From Pyrobaculum ferrireducens (GTDB lineage Archaea; Thermoproteota; Thermoprotei; Thermoproteales; Thermoproteaceae), in NCBI RefSeq assembly GCF_000234805.1, contig NC_016645.1, positions 906,391 to 970,390 of the forward strand: a stretch of DNA of 64,000 nucleotides. Direction: 5' to 3'. A program made the position numbers and the translations under genes. Below the pieces are notes generated by a model that saw only the letters and a list, made by a program, of their open reading frames with translations, was not told where the DNA came from and ran no database searches. Shown here piece by piece: positions 19,713-33,613 of this stretch (positions are counted from its first letter, which is position 1; each line of letters begins with the position of its first letter).

Positions 19713-20807
19713 CTACCGCCGCCCCACCAGCTTGTCTAGGGCGGTGAAAAAGAGGTCAAGCGCCTCCCTCAGCTTCTTTTCGTCGGCCCAGCCGAGGCCG
19801 ACCCTCAGGTAGCCCGGCATCTCGAAACACTCGCCAGGGTTCACCAAGACCCCGATCTCGTCGAAGATCTCCTCCGCCAGCTTCATAGTGCCGCCGCCGA
19901 CGTATATATACGCGAAGGCGGCCGACTTCGTATTCCACCACTTGACGTAGCTCCTCCCAGCCACGTAGCTCTGGAAAATGGCAAAGTTCCTACGGACAAT
20001 CTCCCTCGCCCTCCTCACAAAGAAATCCCTCTTCTCCAACACCCCCACCGCCACGCGCTGGTCCAGCACAGGCGGCGAAATAGTGGTGTAGTCCTTCACA
20101 GACCACGCCTTGTCAACCACCTCCCTCGGCCCCACAACCCAGCCAATCCTAAGCCCCGCCAAGCCGTAGACCTTCGACAGAGACCCCGTGACGACCGCCC
20201 TCTCGTACCGCCCAGCGAAGGTGGGGGACTCGGCGCCCTCGTGCTCAAGCCCCCTATACACCTCATCCACCACGAGGTAGGCCCCGGCGTCGCGTGCAAG
20301 GTCAAGCAACGCCCTCCTCTCCTCCTCGGAGAGGTAGTACCCAGTGGGGTTGTTTGGGTTGGTTACGAAAACCGCCCTCACCCCCCGCCTCACCTTCTCC
20401 TTGAGCGCCTCCACGTCGAGGCCGGAGCCGTACTTAATCCACACCTTCTCCACCCGAGCGCCGAGAGCCCGCAGTACGCCGGGGATCTGCATATACGTCG
20501 GCATAACCACCACCGCCACGTCCCCGGGCCCCATAAGCGCGGCGGTGGAGACAAAATTCGCCTCGGCCCCACCTGCCGTCACCATAACCTCCTCGGCGTC
20601 GACGCCGTGGATCCCAGCGATGACCGACCTAAGCTCCGGCAGGCCCTTCGTCATGCCGTACCCCAGCTCAACCCTCTCCGGGAAGCCCACCACCTCTATC
20701 AACTCCCTGAGGGTCAGGGGCTCAACCCCGCTCTCCGAGAGGTTGTACCGCGCCCTCCAGTCCCTAAGAGACTGCCACCTCTCGAGACAGAACTCTGGGA
20801 AAATCAC
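19713..20807 (-). CDS. Class I/II PLP-dependent aminotransferase
   Basis: About 364 aa of the aspartate aminotransferase fold: AGGAEANFV, the conserved NPNNPTG, YLVVDEVYRG, the PLP lysine in GSLSKVYGLAGLRIGW, and a terminal YLRVGLG. Donor and acceptor specificity cannot be read. The frame stays open far upstream, but that part is a shadow of the VKOR gene. The GTG at 20807 overlaps the VKOR stop as GTGA and begins the homologous region (IFPEFCLERW). It is probably translated together with VKOR, although no functional link is obvious. Confidence 0.88.
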   Translation of the reverse strand: MIFPEFCLERWQSLRDWRARYNLSESGVEPLTLRELIEVVGFPERVELGYGMTKGLPELRSVIAGIHGVDAEEVMVTAGGAEANFVSTAALMGPGDVAVVVMPTYMQIPGVLRALGARVEKVWIKYGSGLDVEALKEKVRRGVRAVFVTNPNNPTGYYLSEEERRALLDLARDAGAYLVVDEVYRGLEHEGAESPTFAGRYERAVVTGSLSKVYGLAGLRIGWVVGPREVVDKAWSVKDYTTISPPVLDQRVAVGVLEKRDFFVRRAREIVRRNFAIFQSYVAGRSYVKWWNTKSAAFAYIYVGGGTMKLAEEIFDEIGVLVNPGECFEMPGYLRVGLGWADEKKLREALDLFFTALDKLVGRR

Positions 20808-21256
20808 CTTATTAGCGGAGACACCCTCCTTAAAAATATAGTAATAACCACGAAGTCGGCGACGATGAAAATGTGCATGATGGTGCAGTAGATGCAGACG
20901 GCCTTCAGCACGGCGAACTCCAGATAGAGTAGGTAAGGCAGAAGCGCGAGGCCCAGGAGGCGCCACCAGAAGATGAAGCGCGCCGCCCTCCTCTCCAAGG
21001 TGCGGTACAGCCAGAGCGCCGCGGCTATGTTGACCACAAACCACACAGCCGCCGCAACGTCCAGAGGCACCGGGCCGATGTAGGCGTACTCGCTCTTCAA
21101 CACCCTCAAGCAGTCGGCGGTGACCCCCGGCAGAACCTCGCCCACGTAGCAACCTGGCGGCAACTGCCCAAGGAGGTAGAAGAGGTAGACCACCAGAAGA
21201 GACGCCGCCAGCCCCCCGGCCGAAAACACCACCAGCAGAGGCAACCAGACGTTCAC
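20804..21256 (-). CDS. VKOR-family membrane thiol oxidoreductase
   Basis: A 150-aa protein with four hydrophobic helices and a CIYC redox motif in the third or fourth helix. A conserved Cys precedes it in the loop (GCYVGE, ADCLRVLKSEYA), the arrangement of prokaryotic vitamin K epoxide reductase homologues. These use quinone to drive disulfide formation outside the cell. Disulfide-rich proteins are encoded nearby (the pilin-like cluster at 25-30 kb), and hyperthermophilic crenarchaea use many disulfides. GTG 21256 has a TTTTATAAAC box 25 nt upstream. Confidence 0.85.
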   Translation of the reverse strand: MNVWLPLLVVFSAGGLAASLLVVYLFYLLGQLPPGCYVGEVLPGVTADCLRVLKSEYAYIGPVPLDVAAAVWFVVNIAAALWLYRTLERRAARFIFWWRLLGLALLPYLLYLEFAVLKAVCIYCTIMHIFIVADFVVITIFLRRVSPLIR

Positions 21257-21298
21257 ACAGAATCAGAAACCCAGGTTTATAAAACGTGGGGTACGGTG

Positions 21299-21708
21299 CT
21301 AAAAAGGTCCTAAAGCCGCGAGAAACTCCCCGGATGTGAGCACTCGAATCTTTTTTCTGGCCGCCTTGCTTAACCTTTGTCGTCTGTAACCAGCGTGAGC
21401 CCCCTTGACGCCGCGGTGTAGACATACGACCCGTCGTAGAAGGCGACGCCGAGCTCCCCAGCCAATTTTAATACTTCACTCTCTACTCCTCTCACCGTGA
21501 AGGTGGGAAGTACATCAAAAACCCTAGATAACGCCTTTACGTAGCTATGTGCGGTATCAATGTCGATCCTCCTCAGCAGGTACAGTTCTTTCCACACCGC
21601 ATTAAATGCCTCATATACCGTTAGATCCAGCACGGCGCCTTGGTACAGCGCGCTGGCCCTTCCTCTTTTAAGTATATTTACAACTGCGCTGGCGTCAAAT
21701 AGGTACAT
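21299..21708 (-). pseudogene. vapC: VapC-like PIN-domain toxin with C-terminal frameshift
   Basis: The N-terminal 112 aa form a PIN ribonuclease: YLFDASAVVN (first Asp), LTVYEAFNAVWKE (Glu), VAFYDGSYVYTAA (Asp) and LVTDDKG, then TAA at 21370. In the next frame, directly after the stop, comes RLSKAARKKIRVLTSGEF, which is the normal VapC ending, to a TAG at 21299. Adding one A to the AAA before GG restores TDDKRLSKAA. The last helix and strand are therefore lost, which may inactivate the toxin. Start ATG overlaps the antitoxin stop (TAATG). Confidence 0.85.
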
Positions 21709-21938
21709 TACCGTCTGTCTCTATCCTCCCGTATCAATTCAGCCACCTCCTCGTCTGAGACGACTGAGAGCTTATCCACCAACCCCTTCAACTCCCTCTC
21801 CACCTCTTCTAAAACACGCCTCCTCACCTCAGCCTCCAGCGCCCTCCTAATGACCGGCCCCGGCTTCACCCCGTACCTATCCAAAAGTTCCTTAAGCCTC
21901 CTGGGAATTTTAGCGGAAACAGTAACGTAGTCGCCCAC
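21708..21938 (-). CDS. vapB: VapB-like antitoxin
   Basis: About 76 aa: an N-terminal beta strand plus helices (YVTVSAKIPRRLKELLDRYG) of ribbon-helix-helix type and a highly charged C-terminal helix (EEVERELKGLVDKLSVVSDEEVAE split by loops) that would bind the PIN toxin. GTG 21938 is preferred to the TTG at 21959 because CTTATATTT at 21958-21966 then sits at the leaderless distance. It precedes vapC with a 1-nt overlap; such proteins usually repress their own operon. Confidence 0.8.
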   Translation of the reverse strand: MGDYVTVSAKIPRRLKELLDRYGVKPGPVIRRALEAEVRRRVLEEVERELKGLVDKLSVVSDEEVAELIREDRDRR

Positions 21939-22014
21939 GGATATGTAACAGGTTGACAAATATAAGATTTACCTTCCGGAGATAGACATATTAGCACCTG
22001 GCCAAATTGGGACG

Positions 22015-22464
22015 GTGCCGAATAGGCGGCGCGCCGAGGCGCTGGTGGGCGTCCTGAGGATTTCAACGGCGCAGTGCCACGTAATTGAGGTGAGGCCACG
22101 GCGGGCCGAGGTGGACCTCGCCGCAGTGTGCAGTACCGGTAGGCCCATCAAAGTTGCAGAGCTCACAGCGCGGCGCCGGGCAGAGGTTAGGTTTGTCCCC
22201 ACCTCGGCGAGGGCCGAGGGCGGCGTCAAGGCGGCTGGCACCGTCGCCGTGGTGCTTAGGGGGCCGCGCGTCTACGAGATCCCCATGTACTGCCTCATCG
22301 ACGTGCCCCCGGGCAACTGCGCCAGGCCCATGGTGCTCGTGCCGGGCTTCGACGCCCCGCTGGAGATAGAGCCAGGTACATACGACCTCTACCTAGCCGG
22401 CGGATGCGCGGCAGAGGGGGAGGGCACCGTGGAGATAGCGGTGGAGCTCACAGCCGTGTGCTAG
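22015..22464 (+). CDS. Hypothetical protein, beta-rich
   Basis: A 149-aa protein with Arg-rich N-terminus, no signal peptide, five Cys and predicted beta strands (HVIEVRPRRAEVDL, EGTVEIAVELTAVC). No family recognised. The GTG at 22015 is supported by an ACATATTAGC box 25 nt upstream; GTG 22048 is a shorter option. Its stop overlaps the stop of the convergent nuclease-like gene by 4 nt. Confidence 0.55.
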   Translation: MPNRRRAEALVGVLRISTAQCHVIEVRPRRAEVDLAAVCSTGRPIKVAELTARRRAEVRFVPTSARAEGGVKAAGTVAVVLRGPRVYEIPMYCLIDVPPGNCARPMVLVPGFDAPLEIEPGTYDLYLAGGCAAEGEGTVEIAVELTAVC

Positions 22465-22991
22465 TACACGTAGACTAGGACCCCCTTACCTCTGGCGTAG
22501 GCCTCCACCTCCCGGCCGATGTAGCTCCCAGCCAGCACTGGCACGGCCGGCTTGCCCAGTCTGCGCCCCGCCAACTCGGCCTTAGCCAGCAAAGCCCCCA
22601 CGTCGCCGACCCGGGGCCCAGCCTTGACCTCCACCACGTAAGCCCTCTCCTCGATCTCCACCAGGAGATCCACCTCCACCCCGTCGAAGTCGGCATTCCT
22701 CACGCGCCTCACAACCCGCTCCCCAGACGCCCCGATCACCTCGCCCAGATCCCCCCACACATACCGTGTATACACCGCCTCGGTCAAGGCGCCGAGCCCC
22801 TCCTCAAGCCGCGAAAACCTCCCATTAGCCTCCTCCCAACGAACCTGCCGTTCCTTGACAAATTTATTAAAATCCTCCCTCAGCCTCCTCAACCCCTCCA
22901 ACACCTCCCGCAGACCCAGGTAGCCAGCCACCGCCATTCGGAACTCCTCATCCTCCTCGAGAAGGCGGAGAAACTCCTCCCTCAGCCCCAC
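22461..22991 (-). CDS. DUF3782-like PD-(D/E)XK nuclease-fold protein with coiled coil
   Basis: About 176 aa. The N-terminal half is a charged helix/coiled coil (LREVLEGLRRLREDFNKF, RFSRLEEGLGALTE). The C-terminal half carries FDGVEVDLLVEIEERAYVVEVKAG, in which the Asp and E-x-K match the PD-(D/E)XK nuclease core, followed by a Gly/Val-rich ending. This architecture is common in crenarchaea and of unknown use; restriction-like cleavage or a structural role are both possible. The open frame begins at 23099, but GTG 22991 starts the recognisable part; the exact start is uncertain. Confidence 0.65.
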   Translation of the reverse strand: MGLREEFLRLLEEDEEFRMAVAGYLGLREVLEGLRRLREDFNKFVKERQVRWEEANGRFSRLEEGLGALTEAVYTRYVWGDLGEVIGASGERVVRRVRNADFDGVEVDLLVEIEERAYVVEVKAGPRVGDVGALLAKAELAGRRLGKPAVPVLAGSYIGREVEAYARGKGVLVYVY

Positions 22992-23050
22992 GTCTACTAC
23001 AGAACACCCTTCTAAAACTGAAGAATATAAACTAGAGGGGGGTGGGAGCT

Positions 23051-23863
23051 GTGAAGATATACGAGGTGAGGGTGAGGCGGGCCCTGGCGCCCTCCGCACT
23101 GCCCGAGTACGACTACTCCCTCAACCCGTACCTGGGTTGCCTCCACGGCTGTCTCTACTGCTACGCCATGGACATGACCAGGGGCCCTCCAGGGGCCATG
23201 TGGGGCAGAGTTGTCTACGTCAAGGTCAACCTCCTCGAGGTGCTGAGGCGGGAGGCGGCGAGGCTAAAGCCCGGCGTCGTGGGGATGTCCACCATCACAG
23301 ATCCCTACCAGCCCCCCGAGGCGAGGTACAGACTGGCGAGGGGGGCCCTGGAGATACTGGCCGAGGCCGGCTTCCACATCTCCATCCAGACCAAGTCCGG
23401 CCTGGTGGTCCGCGACCTCGACCTACTCGCGAGGTATAGACACCGCGTCGACGTGGGTGTGACCATAACCACCATGAGAGACAAGGCGAGGATTCTCGAG
23501 CCGCTCGCCGCCCACCCCCTCGCCCGGATCCGCGCCGTCGAGAAGATAGCCGCCGCGGGGGTGAAGACGTGGGTCTTCCTTGGCCCCGTCATACCAGGCT
23601 TCAACGACGACCCCAGCGACCTGCGGGAGGTGGTGGAGGCCGCCCACGCCGCCGGCGCCGAGGTGGTATACGACCGATACCGCCCTAGGCCCCGCGCAGA
23701 CGCAACCCTCGCCTCCACGTGGAGAAAAGTCGAGGCGACGCAGCAGTGGTGGGCACGGACGAAAAAGACTATAGAGCAGATATGCGCCGAGGTAGGCGCC
23801 AGGTGCCTAGACGTAGAAAAGGAGTGGCGAGACACCAAAAAATCGAAGATGGGACACCTCTAG
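23051..23863 (+). CDS. Radical SAM protein, SPL-like (COG1533)
   Basis: A 270-aa protein with the cluster motif CLHGCLYCYA (Cys30, Cys34, Cys37) and the following GPPGAMWGRVVYVK and STITDPYQPPEARY, features of the spore photoproduct lyase-related group found widely in archaea. Substrate unknown; a role in nucleotide or DNA repair is only a guess. GTG 23051 (rather than 23042) is favoured because TATAAAC at 23025-23031 is 23-25 nt upstream. Confidence 0.85.
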   Translation: MKIYEVRVRRALAPSALPEYDYSLNPYLGCLHGCLYCYAMDMTRGPPGAMWGRVVYVKVNLLEVLRREAARLKPGVVGMSTITDPYQPPEARYRLARGALEILAEAGFHISIQTKSGLVVRDLDLLARYRHRVDVGVTITTMRDKARILEPLAAHPLARIRAVEKIAAAGVKTWVFLGPVIPGFNDDPSDLREVVEAAHAAGAEVVYDRYRPRPRADATLASTWRKVEATQQWWARTKKTIEQICAEVGARCLDVEKEWRDTKKSKMGHL

Positions 23864-24095: not shown

Positions 24096-24389
24096 CTACT
24101 CGCCGTGCGGGTTGAGTTGTAAGAAATCCTTAACCCACAGGTACTTCGATGTTAGTTTTATCAGCTTTATCCGGGGGCTGGGCTTGTGGACCTCCAACAC
24201 CCCGGCCTTCTCAAGTCTCTCGATATGCCGGTAGAGAGTTTTCGGAGCCACTCCAACCCTCCGGGCTAGCTCCCTCAATGTGAGGCCGTAGTGATCCTGG
24301 GCTAATACCTTCACAATTTTCCAAGGAATGCTGTCGTTGAAGACCTGGTTAATGAGTCGAAGTAAATGCTCGTTATTAAGCTTATCCAT
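24096..24389 (-). CDS. Winged-helix transcriptional regulator (pilus locus)
   Basis: A 97-aa protein. LTLRELARRVGVAPKTLYRHIERLEKAG is a clear helix-turn-helix plus wing, in the ArsR/MarR-like fold, at about residues 35-63. The N-terminal helix may dimerise. It is divergent from another wHTH gene at 24501, and both flank a perfect inverted repeat (24432-24449). That repeat recurs before the pilin-like genes, so this protein is a prime candidate for the local regulator. ATG 24389 has an ACTTAAAATA box at 24407-24417. The near edge of the repeat is 43 nt upstream of its start. Confidence 0.8.
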   Translation of the reverse strand: MDKLNNEHLLRLINQVFNDSIPWKIVKVLAQDHYGLTLRELARRVGVAPKTLYRHIERLEKAGVLEVHKPSPRIKLIKLTSKYLWVKDFLQLNPHGE

Positions 24390-24431
24390 ATACTGCTTTG
24401 AGCAATTATTTTAAGTATTTTATCCAACGAC

Positions 24432-24449
24432 TGTTTCCATAAGGAAACA
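24432..24449. promoter_or_regulatory. Operator a: TGTTTCC-ATAA-GGAAACA, shared by two divergent regulators
   Basis: Perfect 7-bp inverted repeat with a 4-bp spacer in the divergent gap between the two wHTH genes. Edge-to-start distance is 43 nt to ATG 24389 (minus strand) and 52 nt to ATG 24501 (plus strand). It sits just upstream of both TATA boxes. It is the best-conserved member of the family of sites listed below and suits autoregulation. Confidence 0.7.
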
Positions 24450-24500
24450 ACAACGCCACAGCGCACAGCAAAATATTAAAAAGATCACTAACTACCACAC

Positions 24501-24740
24501 ATGGAGTATTCCGATGCATATAAGCGTCTTTCTGAACTCTTTCAAGATGATGTAAAGTGGTGTATCATCAAATACCTCGTAAAACACAGAGAAGCGCCCA
24601 TCAAAGATGTGGCCAAAGCTTGTGGAACCTCCATAGGAGAAATAATTAAGATCCTGAGAGAGATGGAGCAGAAAGGCGTAGTGGAGCTCAGAATCGAAAA
24701 AAGCCGGCAGTACGTCCGCCTCAAAGGTGTTTCCGAGTAG
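24501..24740 (+). CDS. Winged-helix transcriptional regulator (pilus locus)
   Basis: A 79-aa protein built almost entirely of one winged helix: WCIIKYLVKHREAPIKDVAKACGTSIGEIIKILREMEQKGVVELR (split here by loops), with recognition helix SIGEIIKILREME and a wing ending RQYVRLKG. ATG 24501 has an AAATATTAAAA box 24 nt upstream. Its stop lies inside operator b. The gene opens the rightward part of the locus (zinc ribbon, pilin-like genes). Confidence 0.8.
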   Translation: MEYSDAYKRLSELFQDDVKWCIIKYLVKHREAPIKDVAKACGTSIGEIIKILREMEQKGVVELRIEKSRQYVRLKGVSE

Positions 24741-24745
24741 AAACA
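24728..24745. promoter_or_regulatory. Operator b: TGTTTCC-GAGT-AGAAACA
   Basis: Same 7-4-7 layout as operator a with one mismatch in the right arm. It overlaps the last codons of the wHTH gene and is 74 nt before the zinc-ribbon start. A more degenerate copy, CGTTTCC-AGAT-GGGAATT, follows at 24748-24765, 54 nt before that start. Confidence 0.6.
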
Positions 24746-24818
24746 AACGTTTCCAGATGGGAATTGTAACACGCAACCCCCAACTAAACCCTTAAATACA
24801 CCACGCTCCACCCATCCA

Positions 24819-24992
24819 ATGATTTCTAAATTCCAACTACAAATCAAATGCCCAAACTGCGGCAGACACTACATAGTAGAAACCAGAGATGCACAATGCC
24901 CCTACTGCGGTGCCCACTACACCCTTCACATACAGATACAACTCACCCCCAGAAACAGCCGCCACGGTGTTTACACAAAGAAACACTTGTAA
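24819..24992 (+). CDS. 57-aa zinc-ribbon protein
   Basis: A small gene with two CxxC knuckles: CPNCGRHYIV (from Cys11) and CPYCGAHYTL (from Cys27), then a short basic tail. The two halves look like a repeated CPxCGxHY unit. ATG 24819 has a CCTTAAATACA box at 24790-24800, 24 nt upstream. Its 3' end contains operator c for the next gene. The position between the regulator and the first pilin-like gene suggests a regulatory or assembly-control role, which is not proven. Confidence 0.75.
   Translation: MISKFQLQIKCPNCGRHYIVETRDAQCPYCGAHYTLHIQIQLTPRNSRHGVYTKKHL
24968..24985. promoter_or_regulatory. Operator c: TGTTTAC-ACAA-AGAAACA, before the first pilin-like gene
   Basis: 18-bp site inside the 3' end of the zinc-ribbon gene, followed by CTTGT. 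Its right edge is 42 nt before GTG 25027. The TATA-like CATTTAAAAC (24999-25008) lies between the site and the start. Confidence 0.65.
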
Positions 24993-25026
24993 GCCAACAT
25001 TTAAAACAACAGGGGCAAGTTAATCT

Positions 25027-25488
25027 GTGAAGCCATTAGCAACCTTAGCAACAGCACTTATCCTAGCAACCATCGCTACGACGGCCGCCACATGGGCAGA
25101 CCTCCTACCAATAAAACTAAAGGCAAAAACAGGCACCATAGATCTCAACCTACAAAACACATCATACAGTTGCGGAAAACAAAACACAGATGTTTCAATA
25201 TCGTCCACTAAGACAGATAGCTCCTATACAATAACAATAACAGTGGATCCGCCGGGCATGAGTACAGATAGTTGTTCTATAACGCTCACTTTTCAAAACA
25301 CCGGCACCATCCCCATCAAAATCCACACAAGCACATCATATACAGGCGCAGATAGTTGCACGTCAAACCCCACCACCACAGGTAGAGTGGATCCAGGTGG
25401 GACCACCAACATCAACATCTCCGTCTTCAACTGCCAAGGTAGTTGCACCTGCACGGCCACAGCAACCGCCAAGCCTTGGAACCAATAG
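25027..25488 (+). CDS. Secreted TasA/AbpA-like protein, small Cys-rich paralogue (pilin-like 1)
   Basis: A 153-aa protein with an N-terminal hydrophobic signal segment (residues about 4-21) leading to TWADLLPIKLKAKTGTIDL, the counterpart of LWADVLKI...TGxxD in the three larger paralogues. The mature part is Thr/Ser-rich beta structure with seven or eight Cys (SYSCGKQ, DSCSITL, DSCTSN, NCQGSCTC) and ends PWNQ, matching QWNE in the others. The TasA/camelysin and archaeal bundling pilus subunits share this plan: the freed N-terminal strand fills the groove of the next subunit. A GTG start lies 25 nt after CATTTAAAAC. Confidence 0.7.
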   Translation: MKPLATLATALILATIATTAATWADLLPIKLKAKTGTIDLNLQNTSYSCGKQNTDVSISSTKTDSSYTITITVDPPGMSTDSCSITLTFQNTGTIPIKIHTSTSYTGADSCTSNPTTTGRVDPGGTTNINISVFNCQGSCTCTATATAKPWNQ

Positions 25489-25504
25489 TTTCCACAAGTA
25501 AACA
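25487..25504. promoter_or_regulatory. Operator d: AGTTTCC-ACAA-GTAAACA, before pilin-like 2
   Basis: One mismatch per arm to the operator consensus, same 4-bp spacer, followed by GTTGGTGGGC. Right edge is 43 nt before ATG 25547. It begins within the last codon/stop of the preceding pilin-like gene. Confidence 0.65.
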
Positions 25505-25546
25505 GTTGGTGGGCTAGATTTTAGAGCAGACAACCAGGCGGTGCTT

Positions 25547-26239
25547 ATGAAAGTGAAGTACGTGACAGCTGTCTCAGTAACATTCTTGTTACTGGTGGTC
25601 GCCACAGCCTTCGCACTGTGGGCAGACGTCCTAAAAATACACGTAGAGACAAGAACAGGCAACATCGACATACAATTCGACGGAACCCCAAATGCCATTG
25701 AGTACACAGAAGATACCGGTACGATAGGAGAGTACGAGGGTAAAGACGTGGCTAAGTGTGAAGCCGAATTAGTGGAAATGCAGAATGAGGAGACTTTTGC
25801 ATCAGGTGCCGGCTTACTGCCGCCGACTTGGAACCCCTCGTCGGGGAACAACGACTTAGAGCTACACATCGCGGTATCAAACGCGTATCCTGGCTACATA
25901 TGCAAGATTGGCAATATCGCCGTGAAAAACACGGGAAGCGTGCCAGTTAAGGTGCTCGTAAAGATCGTTGATAAGGACGGCAATGTCATTAGGCCGGAGC
26001 GCTACTTTGGAGGATTTATATCATACATAGACACAGACCGCGACGGGTGCACAGAACTGGACCTAGACTTCTCCAGCTTCTTTACCCTAAACGGCACACA
26101 GCTCCACCCAGGCGGCTCGCAACAATTCACAGTGAACCTAAGACTACCCATTGAGAGACAAGAATGCATAAAAGAAAACACCACCTACGAATTCTACATA
26201 ATAATCATTGGCTACCAGTGGAACGAATATCCACACTAA
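25547..26239 (+). CDS. Secreted TasA/AbpA-like pilin protein 2
   Basis: About 230 aa. Residues 1-23 form a signal peptide ending TAFA; then comes LWADVLKIHVETRTGNIDI, the strand expected to be donated to the neighbouring subunit in a donor-strand-exchanged filament. The mature domain is beta-rich with four Cys at positions shared with paralogues 3 and 4 (KCEAELVEM, YICKIGNIAVKNTG, GCTELDLD) and ends YQWNE. ATG 25547 is chosen over the GTG at 25541 because it follows a basic MKVK and an ATTTTAGA box about 28 nt upstream. It would be exported by Sec and trimmed by the signal peptidase encoded at 27608. Confidence 0.78.
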   Translation: MKVKYVTAVSVTFLLLVVATAFALWADVLKIHVETRTGNIDIQFDGTPNAIEYTEDTGTIGEYEGKDVAKCEAELVEMQNEETFASGAGLLPPTWNPSSGNNDLELHIAVSNAYPGYICKIGNIAVKNTGSVPVKVLVKIVDKDGNVIRPERYFGGFISYIDTDRDGCTELDLDFSSFFTLNGTQLHPGGSQQFTVNLRLPIERQECIKENTTYEFYIIIIGYQWNEYPH

Positions 26240-26254
26240 CCCTCAATCCTTTTT

Positions 26255-26272
26255 TGTTTCTTAAATGAAACA
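26255..26272. promoter_or_regulatory. Operator e: TGTTTCT-TAAA-TGAAACA, before pilin-like 3
   Basis: Inverted repeat with perfect 6-bp arms TGTTTC/GAAACA, followed by CTTGTTTAGC. Right edge is 43 nt before ATG 26315. It lies in the short gap after pilin-like gene 2. Confidence 0.7.
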
Positions 26273-26314
26273 CTTGTTTAGCTAAAAATTTTACCTCCAC
26301 ACAGTCTTAAACCT

Positions 26315-27550
26315 ATGAACAAGAAATACGCAACAGCCATAGCCACTGCGATGTTGCTACTAACAGTCGCCACGGCCTTCGCACTGTGGGCAGACGTCCT
26401 AAAAATCAAACTTACAGCCTACACCGGTAGCGTTGATATGGAGTTCGGCGACACCTTTACTATTACTGAGTATGTTGGATTTCCAGACGGCAGTGGAGGT
26501 TGGAACTTCGTACAAGAGGGCAGTGACCCAGAGGCAAAAGACGTGGGCAACTGCCAAGCAGAACTAGTAGAAGTTGAAGACGAGGAAGGTTCTCTTTCGT
26601 CATCCGGCGACAACGATCTTGATTTAAAAATAACGGTAACAAACGCCTATCCTGGGTATAAGTGTAGTGTTACATTTAATGTTGTTAACACCGGCACGAT
26701 ACCCGTCAAGGGGCCGGTCATCGTCATCCCCTCTAGCCCATGGACCGACGGCAACATCCTAGTGGAGCACGACATAACCACCGCGGCGTGTACACAGCTA
26801 CACCCAGGCGACACCCAGCGCTTCCAAGTCAACGTAACGACGCTACAAGCCGCAAGCGAGTCAACGACATACACAGTCCAGATATACCTACGCTACGACC
26901 AGTGGAACGAGGCTGAGTGCCCAGGCGAAGGAGGAGGCGCAGGCGAGCTCAGCCTCAGCAAGTACTTCACCAGGAGTGGGGCTGGCGACCCTCTACCAAC
27001 CGACGATGGATACCCCTACATAGATATCCAGGTTAGAAATGACGGTAGATTTGGCCAAACTAACCCTGACCATGTGATTATGGTTGTTGCTTTGCATAAC
27101 CAGTTGGGGTTCGCCATGGATACATCAGCCACGTCTTTACAAATAGTGGATCAGCTCCCAGACGGCTGGGGGTTACCGACTAGCGGTAGTTGGGATAGTA
27201 AGGTAAAGGTCTGTATATTCAACACGCTACCCTCCAACTTCCCAGACATTGGGTTTGATAATCCATGTAGCGGCGGAACTCAAGTGACCAGCGCAAGTTT
27301 CAGCTACTCAGGAGGCACTTTGACGGTAACCATTAATGAGCCCACCGTCCCGAACAATGGATATGTGGTCGTCGTTATTAAGTCTGTGTTTACAAAAACC
27401 GGCAACCCGGTGCCACCCGGCTACTTTGATCAAACTGACTCTAGTCCTCCGCACACCGGCAATTACCGCCTCTTTACGAATAGTGCGTCAGCGACTTGGG
27501 GCGACTACACAGCGAACGTAGCGGCGAGTTTTAGAGGTTACGAGAAATAG
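26315..27550 (+). CDS. Two-domain TasA/AbpA-like protein (pilin domain plus C-terminal beta domain)
   Basis: A 411-aa protein. Residues 1-23 are a signal peptide ending AFA; 24-205 are a pilin domain like its neighbours (LWADVLKIKL, CQAELVEVED, YKCSVTFNVVNTG, DQWNE). After a Gly-rich linker (GEGGGAG) comes a second, beta-rich domain of about 190 residues (SLSKYFTRSGAG, YIDIQVRNDG, LTVTINEP) not shared with the paralogues. An 81-nt stretch (26439-26519) is identical to 29889-29969 in paralogue 4. The extra domain would suit a tip, anchor or adhesive subunit; this is inferred from architecture only. Confidence 0.75.
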   Translation: MNKKYATAIATAMLLLTVATAFALWADVLKIKLTAYTGSVDMEFGDTFTITEYVGFPDGSGGWNFVQEGSDPEAKDVGNCQAELVEVEDEEGSLSSSGDNDLDLKITVTNAYPGYKCSVTFNVVNTGTIPVKGPVIVIPSSPWTDGNILVEHDITTAACTQLHPGDTQRFQVNVTTLQAASESTTYTVQIYLRYDQWNEAECPGEGGGAGELSLSKYFTRSGAGDPLPTDDGYPYIDIQVRNDGRFGQTNPDHVIMVVALHNQLGFAMDTSATSLQIVDQLPDGWGLPTSGSWDSKVKVCIFNTLPSNFPDIGFDNPCSGGTQVTSASFSYSGGTLTVTINEPTVPNNGYVVVVIKSVFTKTGNPVPPGYFDQTDSSPPHTGNYRLFTNSASATWGDYTANVAASFRGYEK

Positions 27551-27607
27551 TTAAATGCTGAAAAGGTAAATGTTTGTTTTTTAATTATTGGTTTCCTTAT
27601 TCCTAAT

Positions 27608-28750
27608 TTGGTTTTTCTCTTACCTGGCTGGGGGGGCACCGTGGCGGTTTATGGGGGGTGGCTTCTGCTTTTCTTGGCTCTGTCTCGGAGGCTGGGTGGG
27701 GGGGCTGGGGTGGTTTCGCTGTGGGAATCTCTGTGGCTGGGGATGGTCGCGGTGGCGTATCTCACCGTGATGGGCTTTTTCTTCGGCTTCGCCGTGGTTC
27801 CCTCGCTCTTTAAGCCTGACTTCTTTGCTGTGTCTGCGGCTTTGTGGGGGGTTAAGTTGCTTGGGGTGGAGGCTCTGAGATACGCCGTGTTGAGGACTAG
27901 GTGGCCCTATCTCTTGAAACTGGCGGTGTCTATTGGGGTTGGTGTCTTCTACGGCAATACTATATACACTAATGCTAAGGTGCTGTCAGGCCTCGCGGCT
28001 CCTGAGGGGTGGGCTGGGTTCCTTATCTCGTTTATCCCGGCGGTGTTTTACAACGTGTTGCTTGCCTATGTATATATGTGGGGGGGCTTTAGGCAGGGCC
28101 TTCTTCTTGCGGCGGTGGTGTCGGGGTACTGGGAGCTCTCGCCTGTGAGGCTGACTTCTTCACTAGGCGCCGTAGGGTCGGTGCTTCAGCTGGTGCTGTA
28201 CTACGGGCTGTATCTGGCGGTGTCTAGGAGGTTCCAGCCTCTCAGAGAGCTTAAGGAGGAGTTCTTCGCCTCGCGGTGGAGTCGAGTTCTTGAGTACTTC
28301 TTCCTAGTCGTCGCGGTGGCGGCTGCCGGCTCTGTCTTGTCTCTGGCGCTGACGGGCCACGTCCCAGTGGCTGTGGTGAGCGGTAGCATGAGGCCTGTCT
28401 ATGACGTAGGTGACTTGGTGATTTTGAAGAGAACTTCCGACGTGGCTGTGGGTGACGTGGTGGCGTTCGTCGTGGAGGGGCAACTGGTGATGCATAGGAT
28501 CGTTGCCGTGACGCCTGACGGGAAGTTCGTGACAAAGGGCGACGCCGTACCGGTGCCCGACCCGTGGCTGGTGCCTAGGGAGGCGGTGGTGGGTAAGGCT
28601 GTTTATAGAATTCCCCTGTTGGGGTACCCTGTGATGTATATACACACCTCTGGGTTTAACATAATGCCTCTGCTGGCGTCTGGGTTGCTGGGGGGAATTG
28701 TTATAAACGAAGTTTTGAAGGCGAGGCGTGGACGCCGGCTTGCTACGTAA
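27608..28750 (+). CDS. Signal peptidase I, Ser-His (SipW/ER) type, with N-terminal membrane domain
   Basis: A 380-aa protein. The first 210 residues hold about six membrane helices of no recognised family. The C-terminal S26 domain has the catalytic Ser in VVSGSMRP (Ser260) and VMHRIVA (His296), with His where bacterial LepB has Lys: the archaeal/ER/SipW form. It is flanked by TasA/AbpA-like secreted proteins, as SipW is in Bacillus, so it is probably the dedicated processing enzyme. TTG 27608 follows a TTTTTAATTAT box by about 25 nt; GTG 27641 is possible. The downstream gene overlaps its end. Confidence 0.85.
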   Translation: MVFLLPGWGGTVAVYGGWLLLFLALSRRLGGGAGVVSLWESLWLGMVAVAYLTVMGFFFGFAVVPSLFKPDFFAVSAALWGVKLLGVEALRYAVLRTRWPYLLKLAVSIGVGVFYGNTIYTNAKVLSGLAAPEGWAGFLISFIPAVFYNVLLAYVYMWGGFRQGLLLAAVVSGYWELSPVRLTSSLGAVGSVLQLVLYYGLYLAVSRRFQPLRELKEEFFASRWSRVLEYFFLVVAVAAAGSVLSLALTGHVPVAVVSGSMRPVYDVGDLVILKRTSDVAVGDVVAFVVEGQLVMHRIVAVTPDGKFVTKGDAVPVPDPWLVPREAVVGKAVYRIPLLGYPVMYIHTSGFNIMPLLASGLLGGIVINEVLKARRGRRLAT

Positions 28751-29699
28751 AATCGCTAAGTGGCCTCACCTAGGCACAGTTGCCTATTTTGCCGGTTTTC
28801 TACTGCTGAGCCTCGGCGCCATAGCGGCGTTGCTGTCATACACCCAGCCGGCCACGCTGGTTAGGGAGGAGCTGGAGTACTCCTTCACGATCACATCTAA
28901 ATTCGACGGCTACGTAGATCTAGTGCCTAATCCAGTGTTTGGCGAGAGGGTGCGCCTCGGCTCGTTGCCGGTTTACCTATCCGCGGCGCGCAACGTCACA
29001 GTGACCCACAGCTTGTCTTTCTCAGGCGGCGTGTTCCGCGGCGGCGTTAGATACGACGTGTATCTGGTGCACCCAGACGGCTGGAGGCTTCTCTACATGG
29101 CAAACGTCTCTCTGCCCCTCTCGATAAACATAACTGACGCCGCAGTTGCCATCGACGGCGTGGCTAAGATATTCGGCGTCTCGGCCTCCGACTTCTCCAT
29201 CCAGGTGGTGGCCAGGGCCGCCGGCCAGATGGTACGTGGCCCCTACACTGTCGATGTGGAGCTCCAGCACCCCATCTCAATCTCGGTGTCCAAGGGGAGG
29301 AATAGGCTAGAGCTTGTGGGAAACCTCACAGCATCTAAGAACTACAACTCAACCAGGAAGGTGGCGATCCCGGTGTACATCGCTGGGCGCCCCGTTGAGG
29401 AGGTGCGGACCCTCTCCGTAGAGGTGGCCGTGGTCGGCGCCGCTTTGGTGGTGGGCGCCACCGCGCTGTCGGCAAGGCAGAGGAAGCCCGAGGAGGCGGT
29501 TGACGAGAAGCTAGCACCCCTCACGGTGGAGGTGCTCGAGGCCGAGGTGCCGGTGGCCGCCATGTTGCCGGTGGCCAGCCCAGAGGTGTTGGCTAAGCTG
29601 GCTAAGATGCTTGAGCGGCCCATAATTAAGCAGAAGTGGAGGGGCAAGGTGAGGTACATGGTTCTGGACCGCGGCGCGGCTTACTACTACGAGGTTTAA
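28728..29699 (+). CDS. DUF5305-like membrane protein of the pilus locus
   Basis: A 323-aa protein with a first membrane helix at about residues 17-37, an extracellular beta-rich region (TITSKFDGYVDLVPN, VTVTHSLSFSGGVFRGG, NLTASKNYNST) and a second helix near 227-244, then a cytoplasmic tail. The plan and the position after an S26B peptidase match DUF5305 proteins, which occur beside such peptidases in other archaea. It may be a filament anchor or assembly factor. GTG 28728 overlaps the peptidase gene by 23 nt, so the two are translationally linked. Confidence 0.65.
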   Translation: MDAGLLRKIAKWPHLGTVAYFAGFLLLSLGAIAALLSYTQPATLVREELEYSFTITSKFDGYVDLVPNPVFGERVRLGSLPVYLSAARNVTVTHSLSFSGGVFRGGVRYDVYLVHPDGWRLLYMANVSLPLSINITDAAVAIDGVAKIFGVSASDFSIQVVARAAGQMVRGPYTVDVELQHPISISVSKGRNRLELVGNLTASKNYNSTRKVAIPVYIAGRPVEEVRTLSVEVAVVGAALVVGATALSARQRKPEEAVDEKLAPLTVEVLEAEVPVAAMLPVASPEVLAKLAKMLERPIIKQKWRGKVRYMVLDRGAAYYYEV

Positions 29700-29703
29700 C
29701 AAC

Positions 29704-29721
29704 TGTTTCCTCCACACACCA
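29704..29721. promoter_or_regulatory. Operator f (half-conserved): TGTTTCC-TCCA-CACACCA, before pilin-like 4
   Basis: The left arm is perfect and the right arm matches at only three of seven positions, but the CTTGTTGGGC that follows agrees with sites c, d and e. Right edge is 44 nt before ATG 29765. Weaker binding is expected if this is functional. Confidence 0.5.
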
Positions 29722-29764
29722 CTTGTTGGGCAAGACTTAAACCCCTAGCCAACACCCAGTACAC

Positions 29765-30394
29765 ATGAAGAAGTTAACTACAACAGCAATAGCAACACTA
29801 GCAGTACTAATAGCAGTAGGCGTAGCCTTCGCACTGTGGGCAGACGTCCTAAAAATACACGTAGAGGTACAGACAGGCGACGTTGACGTGGAGTTCGGCG
29901 ACACCTTTACTATTACTGAGTATGTTGGATTTCCAGACGGCAGTGGAGGTTGGAACTTCGTACAAGAGGACAGTGACTCAGAGGCAAAAGACGTGGGCGA
30001 CTGCCAAGTACAACTGGTGGAAATTGAGAACGAAGAGGACACTTCACTTGGTACCTCTGCTGGAGACAACGACCTCGATCTAGAAATAACTCTGTCTAAT
30101 GCCTACCCAGGTTACAGATGCGACGTTCAGTTTGAAGTGCAGAACACGGGTAGCATACCAGTTAAGCTATACTTCTACGACAGTGACAACAACAGGATAA
30201 CACTGCCTGCTACAATTAACATTGGAGGCGGGGCTGTGATTTGTGAGTTAAGCGGCACAGACGAGGCACAGGTTCACCCCGACGACTCCGCCACCTATAC
30301 GCTGTCGTGTGTGGTGCAACAGAGCGCCGCAGAAGATAGTACATACTCAACACAGATATATATACAGGCACGTCAGTGGAACGAGCCGCCGTAA
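29765..30394 (+). CDS. Secreted TasA/AbpA-like pilin protein 4
   Basis: A 209-aa protein. Signal peptide 1-23 ends AFA; LWADVLKIHVEVQTGDVDV follows. The mature domain has the shared Cys positions (DCQVQLVEIE, YRCDVQFEVQNTG, VICELSG, LSCVVQ) and ends RQWNEPP. It is the single-domain paralogue closest to protein 3: 81 identical nucleotides span DTFTITEYVGFPDG. It may be the main filament subunit, but expression data are needed. The start has GACTTAAAC as TATA-like element 24-32 nt upstream. Confidence 0.78.
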   Translation: MKKLTTTAIATLAVLIAVGVAFALWADVLKIHVEVQTGDVDVEFGDTFTITEYVGFPDGSGGWNFVQEDSDSEAKDVGDCQVQLVEIENEEDTSLGTSAGDNDLDLEITLSNAYPGYRCDVQFEVQNTGSIPVKLYFYDSDNNRITLPATINIGGGAVICELSGTDEAQVHPDDSATYTLSCVVQQSAAEDSTYSTQIYIQARQWNEPP

Positions 30395-30807
30395 TTTGTA
30401 AAGGAATAATATATAAAATACAATTTTTTCTTTCTCTATTCATTTAAATTTTTTATTGATCTGATATTTCGTATCGTTTAACTTAGGTGAGGACTCGCGG
30501 TGACTTTAAGCTCTGCCCCGCTTATTAGAATCTGGGTAGATAGTGCAACGCCTTCTTGACAATTCGATTACAATACAAGTAAAGCCCTTGGCTTATTGCT
30601 AGAGGATATGGTAGGCACTGATTGCTTATTCGCTTTTTGGAGTATAAGCACGTGGTAAGGGGTTAAATGCAGGTATGAATAGCAGAGGTGTTGAGGTGCC
30701 ATAGCTTCCGTTTCCATTTACATCATTATTTTTGCCAAATGCCGTGGGCTTGATATGTGTGGGTTGGATTCCTCGTACTGCGCCAGCTAGTGTTAAATAG
30801 TTGAGTC
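30395..30807. other. Intergenic region, possibly decayed
   Basis: 413 nt of lower GC after the last pilin-like gene. No ORF with a start signal was found. On the minus strand a frame near 30480-30640 reads short stretches such as EGVALSTQILISGAELK interrupted by stops, which may be a dead gene fragment. A lone half-site CGTTTCC occurs at about 30708. No RNA gene was recognised. Confidence 0.4.
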
Positions 30808-31137
30808 GTGTCGGTGTTTGTGTCGGTTATTAATCCTGGTGATAAGGCGAGGTTTGGTGAGGATTCCACGTTCTTGGTTTTTAAAAACGCCGAGGCGGTG
30901 GCTAGGCGGCTGGGGGTTGAGCTGGTGGTGGGCGGCGACGTGCTTAGGATTGGGGATTTTGAGGCTAGGTGGGCCGGGGGGAGGCTTGTGGTGGGGGATT
31001 TTTCTGCCGAGGTTGATGTGGAGCAGTGGGAGGCCTTTGTGTCTCTTGTGCTTAGCTACTTCGTGGGGGTGGGGCGGCCGCCGGATGGGGCGGCTCTGCG
31101 GGATATTCTCTTCGCCGTCGGCGTCTCGACTGGGTGA
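30808..31137 (+). CDS. Hypothetical protein, 109 aa
   Basis: A beta-alpha mix with no membrane segment or signal: FLVFKNAEAVARRLGVELV, then FEARWAGGRLVVGDF and a helix EQWEAFVSLVLSYF. No family recognised. Three in-frame GTGs (30808, 30814, 30820) can start it; TGTTAAATA at 30790-30798 places a leaderless start best at 30820. Confidence 0.5.
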   Translation: MSVFVSVINPGDKARFGEDSTFLVFKNAEAVARRLGVELVVGGDVLRIGDFEARWAGGRLVVGDFSAEVDVEQWEAFVSLVLSYFVGVGRPPDGAALRDILFAVGVSTG

Positions 31138-31184
31138 GGGGTATTTTGCCTGTTAGGTTTTAATAGCGCCGTCTCTCTTTACCT

Positions 31185-31367
31185 GTGTATTTTGTATATG
31201 TTAATAAGAGAAAGGGGAGGGTGTTGATTACTAGGAAGAGGGTTTTGTGGGGTGGGTGGAGGCTGGCGGCGGCTTATGGCAACGCCGCGGCGGCGATGAG
31301 GCTGGCGCGGTTTATCGCCGATGTGAGGGATTACGTGCTTGAGTGGGATCTCTACGTGTTTGAGTGA
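31185..31367 (+). CDS. Small basic hypothetical protein, 60 aa
   Basis: Starts MYFVYVNKRKGRVLITRK and contains an Ala-rich helix (YGNAAAAMRLARFIADVRDY). The GTG start lies 25 nt after GGTTTTAATAG (31156-31166), good support for a leaderless gene. No family recognised. Confidence 0.5.
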   Translation: MYFVYVNKRKGRVLITRKRVLWGGWRLAAAYGNAAAAMRLARFIADVRDYVLEWDLYVFE

Positions 31368-31428
31368 TTTAGACTTGGCTAAAATGTAATGATAGTTAAT
31401 TAGGCCTCATCCCCACGATTTTTTAGCC

Positions 31429-32574
31429 TTGGAAAAATTTTTTAAGAGGTGTTCGGATCTCTACGTGGGTGTTGTTGGTCCCGCTACTGTGGTTTCTGTT
31501 GCGTATGTAGACCCTGGGAACTTCGGCGCTAATCTAGAGGCTGGTATGAGGTTTGGCCTTGGGCTTCTGTGGGTGGTGTGGGTCAGCGGGTTGCTGGCGG
31601 TGGCTGTGCAGTACGTGGCTGGGGCTGTGGGCATCGCCAGGGGGCGCGGCGTCTTGGAGCTGGTGGGCGGCGGGTGGCGGCCCTTTCTATCGCCGGTTCT
31701 TCTGGCGGTGTTGCTTGCGACTGACATGGCTGAGTACGTGGGGGTCATCGCGGGGCTCCACCTACTCCTGGGCCTGCCCATATCCGCCGCGGCTCTGCTC
31801 GGCTTTGTCGACGTGGCAATCCTGGCGGCTCTGGCCGACAGGAGGGATCTCTTTGCCAAGGTGATAGGGGGCATGGTGGCGGCGATTGGGCTGAGCTTCG
31901 TGGCGGAGCTGTTTCTCATAAGGCCGGACCCCGCCTCGGTGCTGGCGGCCTCTTTTCTGCCGAGTATATCTGGGGACTCGGCGCTGGTGGCGGCGGCTAT
32001 AGTCGGGGCGACTATAATGCCCCACGCCGTGGTGCTCCACAGCCACCTAGCTCCGGGGCAGAGCAGGGGAGAGCACGGCTGGCAGACGCTGGTGAACATG
32101 CTGGGGGCCTCGGCGATAAACGCCTCTATCTTGATAACCTCGGCATACGCCCTCGGCGGTAGCGACGTCACTCTCTTCGAGGTGCCTAGGGTGCTGGAAC
32201 CCCTCTACGGCCCCCTATCGGCGATCCTCTTCTCCCTAGCGCTTCTCCTCTCGGGCGTCGCCTCGTCGGCGGTCTCTGTGGAGTTCGGAGTTGTTGCTGT
32301 TAAGTTCATCACGGGCCGGGGGGTGGAGGCGTGGAGGGTTAGGCTGGGCGCCCGCCTGGCCAACCTGGCCCCGGCTGTGCTGGCGATGGGGGTGGCGGGC
32401 CTCTCGCCTCTTTCAGTCCTTGTCTATACTCAGGCGGTGCTTGCGGCGGCTCTCCCGGTCGTCCTTGTGGTGCTGTGGCGCCTCTCGGGCGGCGTCGTGT
32501 CGAGGTGGCTTAGGCTTGTGGTGGCGGGCGCCGCGGCGTACTCGGCCGCACTGGTGGTCTACTCACTTATATAG
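31429..32574 (+). CDS. mntH: Nramp-family divalent metal ion transporter
   Basis: A 381-aa membrane protein with about eleven helices. The metal site is recognisable: DPGN at residues 28-31 in helix 1 and MPHAVVLHSH in helix 6, where Nramp proteins place the Met ligand. It would import Mn2+ or Fe2+ with protons. The start is the TTG at 31429 (EKFFKRCSDL). A DtxR/MntR-like regulator gene starts 8 nt after the stop, which supports metal-responsive control. Confidence 0.9.
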   Translation: MEKFFKRCSDLYVGVVGPATVVSVAYVDPGNFGANLEAGMRFGLGLLWVVWVSGLLAVAVQYVAGAVGIARGRGVLELVGGGWRPFLSPVLLAVLLATDMAEYVGVIAGLHLLLGLPISAAALLGFVDVAILAALADRRDLFAKVIGGMVAAIGLSFVAELFLIRPDPASVLAASFLPSISGDSALVAAAIVGATIMPHAVVLHSHLAPGQSRGEHGWQTLVNMLGASAINASILITSAYALGGSDVTLFEVPRVLEPLYGPLSAILFSLALLLSGVASSAVSVEFGVVAVKFITGRGVEAWRVRLGARLANLAPAVLAMGVAGLSPLSVLVYTQAVLAAALPVVLVVLWRLSGGVVSRWLRLVVAGAAAYSAALVVYSLI

Positions 32575-32581
32575 GGGATTT

Positions 32582-32983
32582 ATGTGTGCCGTGGGTCACG
32601 AGCTTCTGAGGTACAGGCCTGAGCACTACCTGGAGGCGCTTCACCAGCTTGGGGGCCGCGCGTCTCTTACGGCGCTTGCGAGGGTGGTGGGGGTGAGGCC
32701 CAGCACCGCTAGGAAGATGGTGCTGTACCTCCAGGCGGAGGGGCTGGTGGAGTACCGGGGCCGCGGGGGGGTTCTGCTTACTGAGGCTGGGAGGGCTAGG
32801 GTGGAGCATCTGGACAGGATACACAGCTCCCTCGCCGACTTCTTCAAGGCCATCGGCGTCGAGGAGGAGCTCGCCGAGTCGGAGGCCGAGAAGCTGGAGC
32901 ACGTAATCGATCCGAGGGTGGTGGAGCGCCTCGCCGCCGTGGCACAGCTGTTGAAGAGCCTCAAGGCGCTGTGTGGGCGGTAG
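32582..32983 (+). CDS. DtxR/MntR-like metal-dependent regulator
   Basis: A 133-aa protein with a winged helix (YLEALHQLGGRASLTALARVVGVRPSTARKMVLYLQAEG, given here with loops) and a second helical part rich in Glu and His (ARVEHLDRIHSSLADFF, EEELAESEAEKLEHVI), matching the metal-binding/dimerisation region of DtxR/MntR. It probably represses mntH upstream. The longer open frame upstream is a shadow of mntH; ATG 32582 is the start. Confidence 0.8.
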   Translation: MCAVGHELLRYRPEHYLEALHQLGGRASLTALARVVGVRPSTARKMVLYLQAEGLVEYRGRGGVLLTEAGRARVEHLDRIHSSLADFFKAIGVEEELAESEAEKLEHVIDPRVVERLAAVAQLLKSLKALCGR

Positions 32984-32989
32984 CGCGGC

Positions 32990-33613
32990 TCACCGGCCGA
33001 GGGCTTTGAGGAGGGCTCTGACTTTCTCCATATTCTTCACGCCGGGGGCGTCCTCCACCCCGCTCGCCACGTCCACCATGTAAGGCCTAAGCCTAGCAAC
33101 AAGATGCGCATTTTCTGGAGTTATCCCCCCAGCTATAGCAACTTTGTCCAGATGGGCCACTTCCCCAAGTACCGCTAATGGTATCTTTAAGCCACCTTCG
33201 TAACGTTCTTGGCTTTTTTTGTCAGCGTCAATTAAGATATATTCATATCTCCGCTTAAGTAGGGACTCTACGATCTTTTTTATATTGATTCCCGGTTTGT
33301 ATAGAACAACTGGGGCCAACGTAAGACCTCTCTCTGTGGCGTAGTCATAATCCTCTGGGAGGATAGTGTTGTGATACTGTATCACTTGTATTTCGAATGT
33401 TGCCGCTATCTCAACGGCTTTTTTTAATGACAGAGATGCTGTGACGAGTACAGGTTTGTTTCTTTGTACCATTTCACGGAGTGATTGAAGCTGATCTATA
33501 GACACCGAGCGGGGACTTATAGGCTCAACTATAAATCCTATGTAGTCAACTAACTGATCAAGTATATACACATCTTCCGGTCTTGTTACACCGCATATCT
33601 TTACCAAAACCAC
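32990..33613 (-). CDS. trpF: Phosphoribosylanthranilate isomerase
   Basis: A 207-aa TIM barrel catalysing the Amadori rearrangement in tryptophan synthesis. [12 protein letters not shown] carries the catalytic Cys, ILIDADKK the Asp region, [10 protein letters not shown] and VDVASGVED the phosphate-binding C-terminal loops. Start GTG 33613 or TTG 33607. Base composition in its 5' two-thirds is clearly more AT-rich than its neighbours. It is 29 kb from trpB2-trpD, so the trp genes are dispersed. Confidence 0.92.

Follow-up and report, generated by a model that had tools for sequence, protein, structure and literature searches.

Donor-strand fibres of the TasA type connect bacterial and archaeal biofilms, and how the archaeal ones are processed, anchored and regulated is the question addressed here. 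AbpX of Pyrodictium abyssi is a donor-strand fibre of solved structure (PMC11952670). In Bacillus the Ser-His peptidase SipW processes TasA, whose P2' residue is Phe, and the Ser-Lys peptidase LepB is slowed by an aromatic residue at that position (PMC10269814). The locus considered below occupies 24096-30394 of a 64,000-nucleotide stretch (the window, whose numbering is used throughout) of Pyrobaculum ferrireducens, the genome of which (G000) is a single contig of 2.47 Mb. Judged by its genes, the locus is very probably a complete and dedicated cassette for a surface filament of this AbpX/TasA type, the filament being predicted.

Nine genes are present: two for winged-helix proteins, one for a zinc ribbon, four for TasA-like subunits, one for a SipW-type peptidase and one for a DUF5305-like protein. 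HTH1 is divergent from the remaining eight, and the fourth TasA-like gene stands after the DUF5305-like gene. An earlier note, made by reading this DNA, had listed a Ser-His peptidase, a DUF5305-like protein, two winged-helix regulators and a zinc ribbon, and all are where it put them. Its term ‘self-contained’ is fair, and the four TasA-like genes found in the whole genome are all at this locus.

24096..24389, minus strand: HTH1 (HTH, helix-turn-helix), winged-helix regulator, candidate controller of the cassette (HTH_24, E 1.6e-10)
24501..24740, plus strand: HTH2, winged-helix regulator (HTH_24, E 4.9e-6; TrmB, E 1.1e-5)
24819..24992, plus strand: zinc-ribbon protein of 57 amino acids (aa), CxxC..CxxC in its translation (Zn_ribbon_3, E 1.2e-5)
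25027..25488, plus strand: TasA/AbpX-like subunit 1, 153 aa, C-terminal end PWNQ (phmmer to AbpX 9sj2, E 4.7e-4; family profile, E 3e-36)
25547..26239, plus strand: TasA/AbpX-like subunit 2, C-terminal end QWNEYPH (family profile, E 3.8e-74; relative in G011, E 2.6e-66)
26315..27550, plus strand: two-domain subunit 3, 411 aa (phmmer to AbpX 9rhp, E 1.1e-5; two beta domains in an AlphaFold2 model)
27608..28750, plus strand: SipW-type (Ser-His) signal peptidase with a membrane N-terminal extension of ~230 aa (TIGR02228, E 5.5e-23; S258-G-S-M and a downstream H; tree)
28728..29699, plus strand: DUF5305-like membrane protein, two transmembrane segments and a large external domain, overlapping the end of sipW (PF17231, E 1.3e-4; homologue in G011, E 2e-23)
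29765..30394, plus strand: TasA/AbpX-like subunit 4, 209 aa, C-terminal end QWNEPP (phmmer to AbpX, E 2.4e-4; 57% identical to subunit 3)

The open reading frame of subunit 2 opens with GTG at 25541, and the in-frame ATG at 25547 is the better start.

The subunit family and its predicted donor strand

The four secreted proteins are mutually homologous (phmmer E 3e-67 to 1e-6). Each has a signal peptide followed by W-A-D-x-L and TG-x-[IV]-D, with W25, T37 and D41 invariant in an alignment of 13 family members, and each has a terminal QWNE or PWNQ strand; in two-domain subunit 3 that strand is the last of domain 1, near residues 196-199. The search and the alignment thus agree with the earlier description of four paralogues sharing a signal peptide, a WADxL-K...TG strand and a QWNE/PWNQ strand. 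Three of the four match AbpX by single-sequence search (E 1e-5 to 5e-4); subunit 2 alone gave no AbpX match by that search and is linked through its homology to the others. A profile of the 13 members reaches AbpX 9sj2 at E 5e-16, making it the nearest solved structure, while the family profiles matched no other PDB chain below E 0.1 and nothing in genome G010. A contig scan for subunits of the window type matched just one contig, from a metagenome-assembled genome.

The AbpX strand WSETLSLSATISTG aligns with the WADxLK..TG strand WADVLKIHVETRTG that had been picked out at the first reading. In PDB chain 9rhp it stands at the C-terminus behind GGGG rather than at the N-terminus, a layout that would be as expected for a donor-strand-complemented construct. 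Trp is residue 2 of the solved chain 9sj2, hence cleavage at AxA|xW, and the precursors compare as LTYA|QWSE for AbpX and AFA|LWADV for the window subunits. Across the phylum W is at mature position 2 in 76 of 79 family members and the WN motif is present in 55 of the 79; mature TasA (the sequence used being PDB 8aur at 100%) has Phe at the equivalent position. The likeness to TasA extends to a proline box, TasA NLKPGD..NNGSLAIK aligning with NAYPGY..NTGSIPVK (pairwise hhalign E 0.0036). Its form in the window is NAYPG..NxGTIPVK, with the variant DPPGM in subunit 1, the most divergent of the four. The AbpX profile, the TasA proline box and the locus context together support the proposal of a TasA/bundling-pilus class with predicted donor-strand assembly and SipW-type processing. 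As a reference for it the earlier note had named AbpA, to which no match was found by sequence; that place belongs to Pyrodictium AbpX.

AlphaFold2 models were built from shallow alignments (5 rows). That of subunit 4 is all-beta (predicted local distance difference test, pLDDT, 74), with the donor strand (27-36) left at pLDDT <50 in the monomer. Subunit 3 has a TasA/AbpX-like domain at 1-200 and a second beta-rich domain at 206-411. The best matches of its model (pLDDT 60) are adhesins of the SdrD/ClfB type at E 2e-7, but with a TM-score of 0.28, so that the modelled likeness is only a hint. Subunit 3 is a candidate for a tip/adhesin or minor subunit.

The genes of the subunits share a mosaic of identical blocks, the longest of which is:

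26439..26519, plus strand, in subunit 3: 81 bp that recur unchanged at 29889-29969 in subunit 4, a gene-conversion tract

At the donor strand subunits 2, 3 and 4 all share the same 32 bp, and subunits 2 and 4 have 43 bp identical. Outside the blocks subunit identity mostly drops to 25-75% (15-codon windows). Identical codons within the shared blocks point to gene conversion, and since a shared block covers the donor strand it is a reasonable inference that the strands would be interchangeable and the filaments mixed.

The peptidase, its partner and a phylum-wide cluster

The peptidase has its Ser-His dyad in S-G-S-M (S258) and M-H-R-I (MHRIV), plus TKGDA, and matches both archaeal signal peptidase I (TIGR02228, 5.5e-23, above cut-off) and SipW (9e-13). 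Another TIGR02228 peptidase is present in every Pyrobaculum-group genome searched except one that is 74% complete, from which it follows that the cassette enzyme is a dedicated second copy. The housekeeping signal peptidase I gene of P. ferrireducens, which lies outside the window (G000:C1:875529-876006, L185), is split over two frames near a C run and is intact in the nearest relative, G003. The split is either an error of sequencing or a true frameshift, and in the latter case the cassette would hold the sole intact copy, its SipW.

Taken alone the neighbouring membrane protein scores 22 bits against PF17231, below the gathering cut-off of 29, and hence is named ‘DUF5305-like’; its homologue in G011 (29% identical, E 2e-23) passes at 47 bits. 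In about 20 loci SipW and DUF5305 genes overlap or are at most about 25 bp apart on the same strand, and in two genomes of one genus they form a single polypeptide (L039:7138-8691 and L040:6913-8499) with an S26/S24 domain near residues 31-117 and DUF5305 up to residue 509. At the level of the genes, overlap and fusion mark DUF5305 as a physical partner of the SipW-type peptidase. DUF5305 is named in no paper found in the literature searched, the 2022 AbpA paper being outside its coverage. On haloarchaeal plasmids (L153-L156) SipW-type peptidase genes stand beside SipW-dependent secreted proteins and others mostly with no Pfam match; no DUF5305 was found there by Pfam, and the neighbours are possibly its functional counterparts.

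DUF5305 is above cut-off in 36 of 398 Thermoproteota genomes. Among 32 DUF5305 regions examined a SipW-like gene is present in 22 and TasA-like genes in 19, with several of the others ending at contig ends. The cluster of two to three TasA-like genes, SipW (~400 aa) and DUF5305 recurs across many families of the phylum: small subunit, subunit, large subunit, SipW, DUF5305 in L115 and L129; small, large, SipW, DUF5305 in L118 and L126; and with no large subunit in L125 and L133. The synteny comparison that had been proposed for this locus finds the cluster order kept in dozens of genomes, and chance is excluded as the origin of the pattern by that order and by the homologies. Of the earlier suggestion that the set is more elaborate than a pilin plus peptidase, the presence of the set stands and its peculiarity to this genome does not, it being a common Thermoproteota cluster.

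What varies is the extra C-terminal domain of the large subunit, which is often adhesin-like: L115, L118 and L126 have SdrD_B and SpaA, the window has an unassigned beta domain, and G011 has a stretch of CTPGYWKNH type. It would fit an exposed, adhesive role for the extra domain of this pre-SipW subunit. When the second domain of subunit 3 was compared with the corresponding C-terminal domains in L115, L118 and L126, the homology was not significant (E 0.03). The G011 stretch, seen by reading, is C-terminal in TasA-like subunits at L035:8514-9543, where the gene is broken into two frames, and L037:15149-15916. The AbpX gene itself is found in L165 (100% match), 0.2 kb ahead of a gene like sipW (E 4e-57) and with DUF5305 not adjacent.

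A candidate operator and a probably exchanged block

The palindrome GTTTCC-N4-GGAAAC, a candidate operator, recurs through the locus:

24433..24448: perfect palindrome GTTTCCATAAGGAAAC between divergent HTH1 and HTH2, 43 nt from the former and 52 nt from the latter, the only 0-mismatch site of the genome
24729..24744: copy with 1 mismatch
24749..24764: copy with 2 mismatches, 54 nt ahead of the start of the zinc ribbon
24969..24984: copy with 2 mismatches, 42 nt before subunit 1
25488..25503: copy with 1 mismatch, 43 nt before ATG 25547 of subunit 2
26256..26271: copy with 2 mismatches, 43 nt before subunit 3
29705..29720: degenerate palindrome with 4 mismatches, 44 nt before subunit 4, weak by sequence and agreeing in spacing

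All three sites with at most 1 mismatch in the genome are at this locus, as are six of the 35 with at most 2, these six within 1.84 kb where about 0.03 would be expected at the genome rate. It is not a genome-wide motif, a reversed control having 46 places against those 35. In G002 the sites are 43 and 44 nt before the two subunit genes, 42 nt before a 137-aa gene and 53 nt before the zinc ribbon; in G003 the spacing is again 43 and 44 nt for both subunits, at sites with 4 mismatches, and the palindrome also precedes HTH1, HTH2 and the zinc ribbon. This constant spacing, 42-44 nt before subunit genes in three cassettes, is independent support for the palindrome. In the G009 cassette it is absent at usable strength. 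A site at this distance is just upstream of the expected TFB recognition element (BRE)/TATA box in a leaderless archaeal gene, and with that placement the genes behind the palindromes are likely a co-regulated set. In the window the sipW and DUF5305 genes have no palindrome upstream and presumably depend on upstream transcription.

How is the locus related to those of its neighbours? By blastn to G003, the nearest relative, DNA identity is 97.4% over 18555-23831 and 92.7% over 30820-33229, falling to 68% over the regulator/zinc-ribbon stretch 24131-24944. Between these is:

24945..30819: replaced block, with no blastn match to G003 and flanks matching at 93-97%

The equivalent gap of G003 is filled by a differently arranged set of two AbpX-like subunits, a membrane protein of 275 aa, SipW and a protein of 141 aa, and the cassettes of G002 and G009 are of the G003 kind. 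HTH1 homologues adjoin the pilus cassettes in all three and zinc-ribbon homologues are present in those of G002 and G003, while HTH2 has a homologue 44% identical in the equivalent place of G003. By reading, open reading frames like HTH1 stand beside TasA-like genes on G011 contigs C5 and C95. Four further genomes (G004, G006, G008 and G010) have the flank genes and, beside the radical-SAM gene, no cassette, HTH1, HTH2 or zinc ribbon. With a confidence matching that given to the filament cassette itself, we infer that the present cassette replaced a different AbpX-like one at the same site, with the neighbouring regulators and the operator type retained. It suggests that these archaea exchange surface fibres as a block.

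The 127-141 aa protein of the alternative cassette (L033:11098-11523, L032:5547-5960, L034:11743-12126) has a donor-strand-like start, ADKAAVSVVATTGSWSYEI, and is a candidate initiator or cap subunit. On reading, the window cassette is directly adjoined on its right (31429-32983) by the gene of an NRAMP-like metal transporter and, after it, a regulator of DtxR/MntR type; to its left (21370-21959) is a VapBC-like toxin-antitoxin pair of a PIN-domain protein with a small partner.

Proposed assembly, alternatives and known systems

In the mechanism envisaged HTH1 and/or HTH2 would bind the palindrome before each subunit gene, switching the subunits on or off together. Sec would export the four subunits and the SipW-type peptidase would cut after A-x-A, as for AbpX, giving an x-W N-terminus. 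The freed strand (LWADVLKI..TG) would then enter the next subunit, on the precedent of AbpX, AbpA and TasA, yielding a polymer with no need of a chaperone-usher. The DUF5305-like protein and the peptidase, associated by overlap and fusion, may form an anchor or assembly platform, and the C-terminal domain of the two-domain subunit would lie outside the fibre, this subunit probably serving adhesion or acting as a tip/minor subunit.

Several points weigh against this. The filament of P. ferrireducens is a prediction from its genes. We know of no function for DUF5305, and searches with the second domain of subunit 3 gave no significant match. The palindrome was first noticed by eye at this very locus, so that the seed site is to be discounted, and among its copies that ahead of subunit 4 is weak. 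The structure prediction that the earlier note had advised gave an all-beta model, but a Foldseek search of the PDB with the subunit 4 model, from its 5-row alignment, gave no significant match (the TasA fibre ranked 29 at E 0.14), and the class assignment rests on sequence and context. That fold search would favour the four proteins being monomeric, associated with the cell surface or S-layer, and merely processed by the peptidase through SipW-type signal peptides, as would the varied ‘SipW-dependent’ secreted proteins that adjoin such peptidases on haloarchaeal plasmids. We think this improbable: throughout the phylum the donor strand and the proline box are retained, a locus of this type encodes AbpX, a donor-strand fibre of solved structure (PMC11952670), and the monomer model leaves the donor strand at low confidence.

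Evenly poised, and a refinement of the filament cassette rather than its opponent, is the thought that a single subunit makes the fibre, the others being an initiator/cap like TapA, an anchor and an adhesin. B. subtilis has TapA plus TasA and B. cereus two camelysins (PMC10151520); the divergence of subunit 1, the extra domain of subunit 3 and the adhesin-type SdrD_B/SpaA domains of the pre-SipW subunit in other genomes point the same way, whereas donor-strand blocks identical in DNA among subunits 2, 3 and 4 are as expected for one polymer with interchangeable strands. That a single ancestral cassette has diverged in the ordinary way, in place of replacement, would accord with both cassettes being AbpX-related and having regulators and operator type in common. 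It is improbable in view of 5.9 kb with no match at all between flanks 93-97% identical, a gene order and content that differ (DUF5305 against the 275-aa transmembrane protein) and the SipW tree of 31 rows. There the window peptidase pairs with G011 (97/94) within DUF5305-type loci of other families (98/99), and G002, G003 and G009 form a separate clade (100/100); long branches are present, and a single Pyrobaculum SipW clade is rejected by the approximately unbiased (AU) test (p 0.016). A wider proposal, tentative and on balance somewhat doubtful, is that donor-strand pili are made by one system across the phylum in which DUF5305 is the missing assembly/anchoring partner of the archaeal SipW, with Pyrobaculum species swapping whole cassettes at one site under a retained regulator/operator code, comparable to serotype switching, and gene conversion keeping co-expressed donor strands interchangeable.

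Relative to the literature examined the new elements are the operator, the cassette swap and the pairing and fusion of DUF5305 with SipW, though some of the neighbourhood may have been described before. The locus type gives a full parts list for such fibres with a testable operator, and points to their block exchange among close relatives. Its nearest counterpart, the AbpX locus of Pyrodictium abyssi (9sj2, 9rhp), has a subunit of the same family as the window (E 5e-16), with the donor strand and with W at position 2 of the mature protein, and a SipW-like peptidase of ~380 aa next door (L165), but has one subunit and no adjacent DUF5305 where the window has four subunits, a DUF5305-like protein, regulators and operators. 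With TasA/SipW/TapA of B. subtilis the window shares an N-terminal donor strand, an aromatic P2', the proline box, the QWN strand and a Ser-His peptidase in the operon; the TasA sequence is distant (hhalign E 0.0036 pairwise), the bacterial SipW (model length 189) is without the long membrane N-terminus, and the TasA literature examined describes no partner like DUF5305. The AbpA bundling pili of Pyrobaculum calidifontis are of the same genus and the same proposed assembly principle, with no sequence match found in G010 or among PDB chains other than AbpX. Closest in composition are the Thermoproteota clusters (L115, L118, L125, L126, L129, L133, L174 and others), which have the parts of the window mostly in the same order; the window differs from them in its extra subunit gene after DUF5305 and in a large subunit with no SdrD_B domain.

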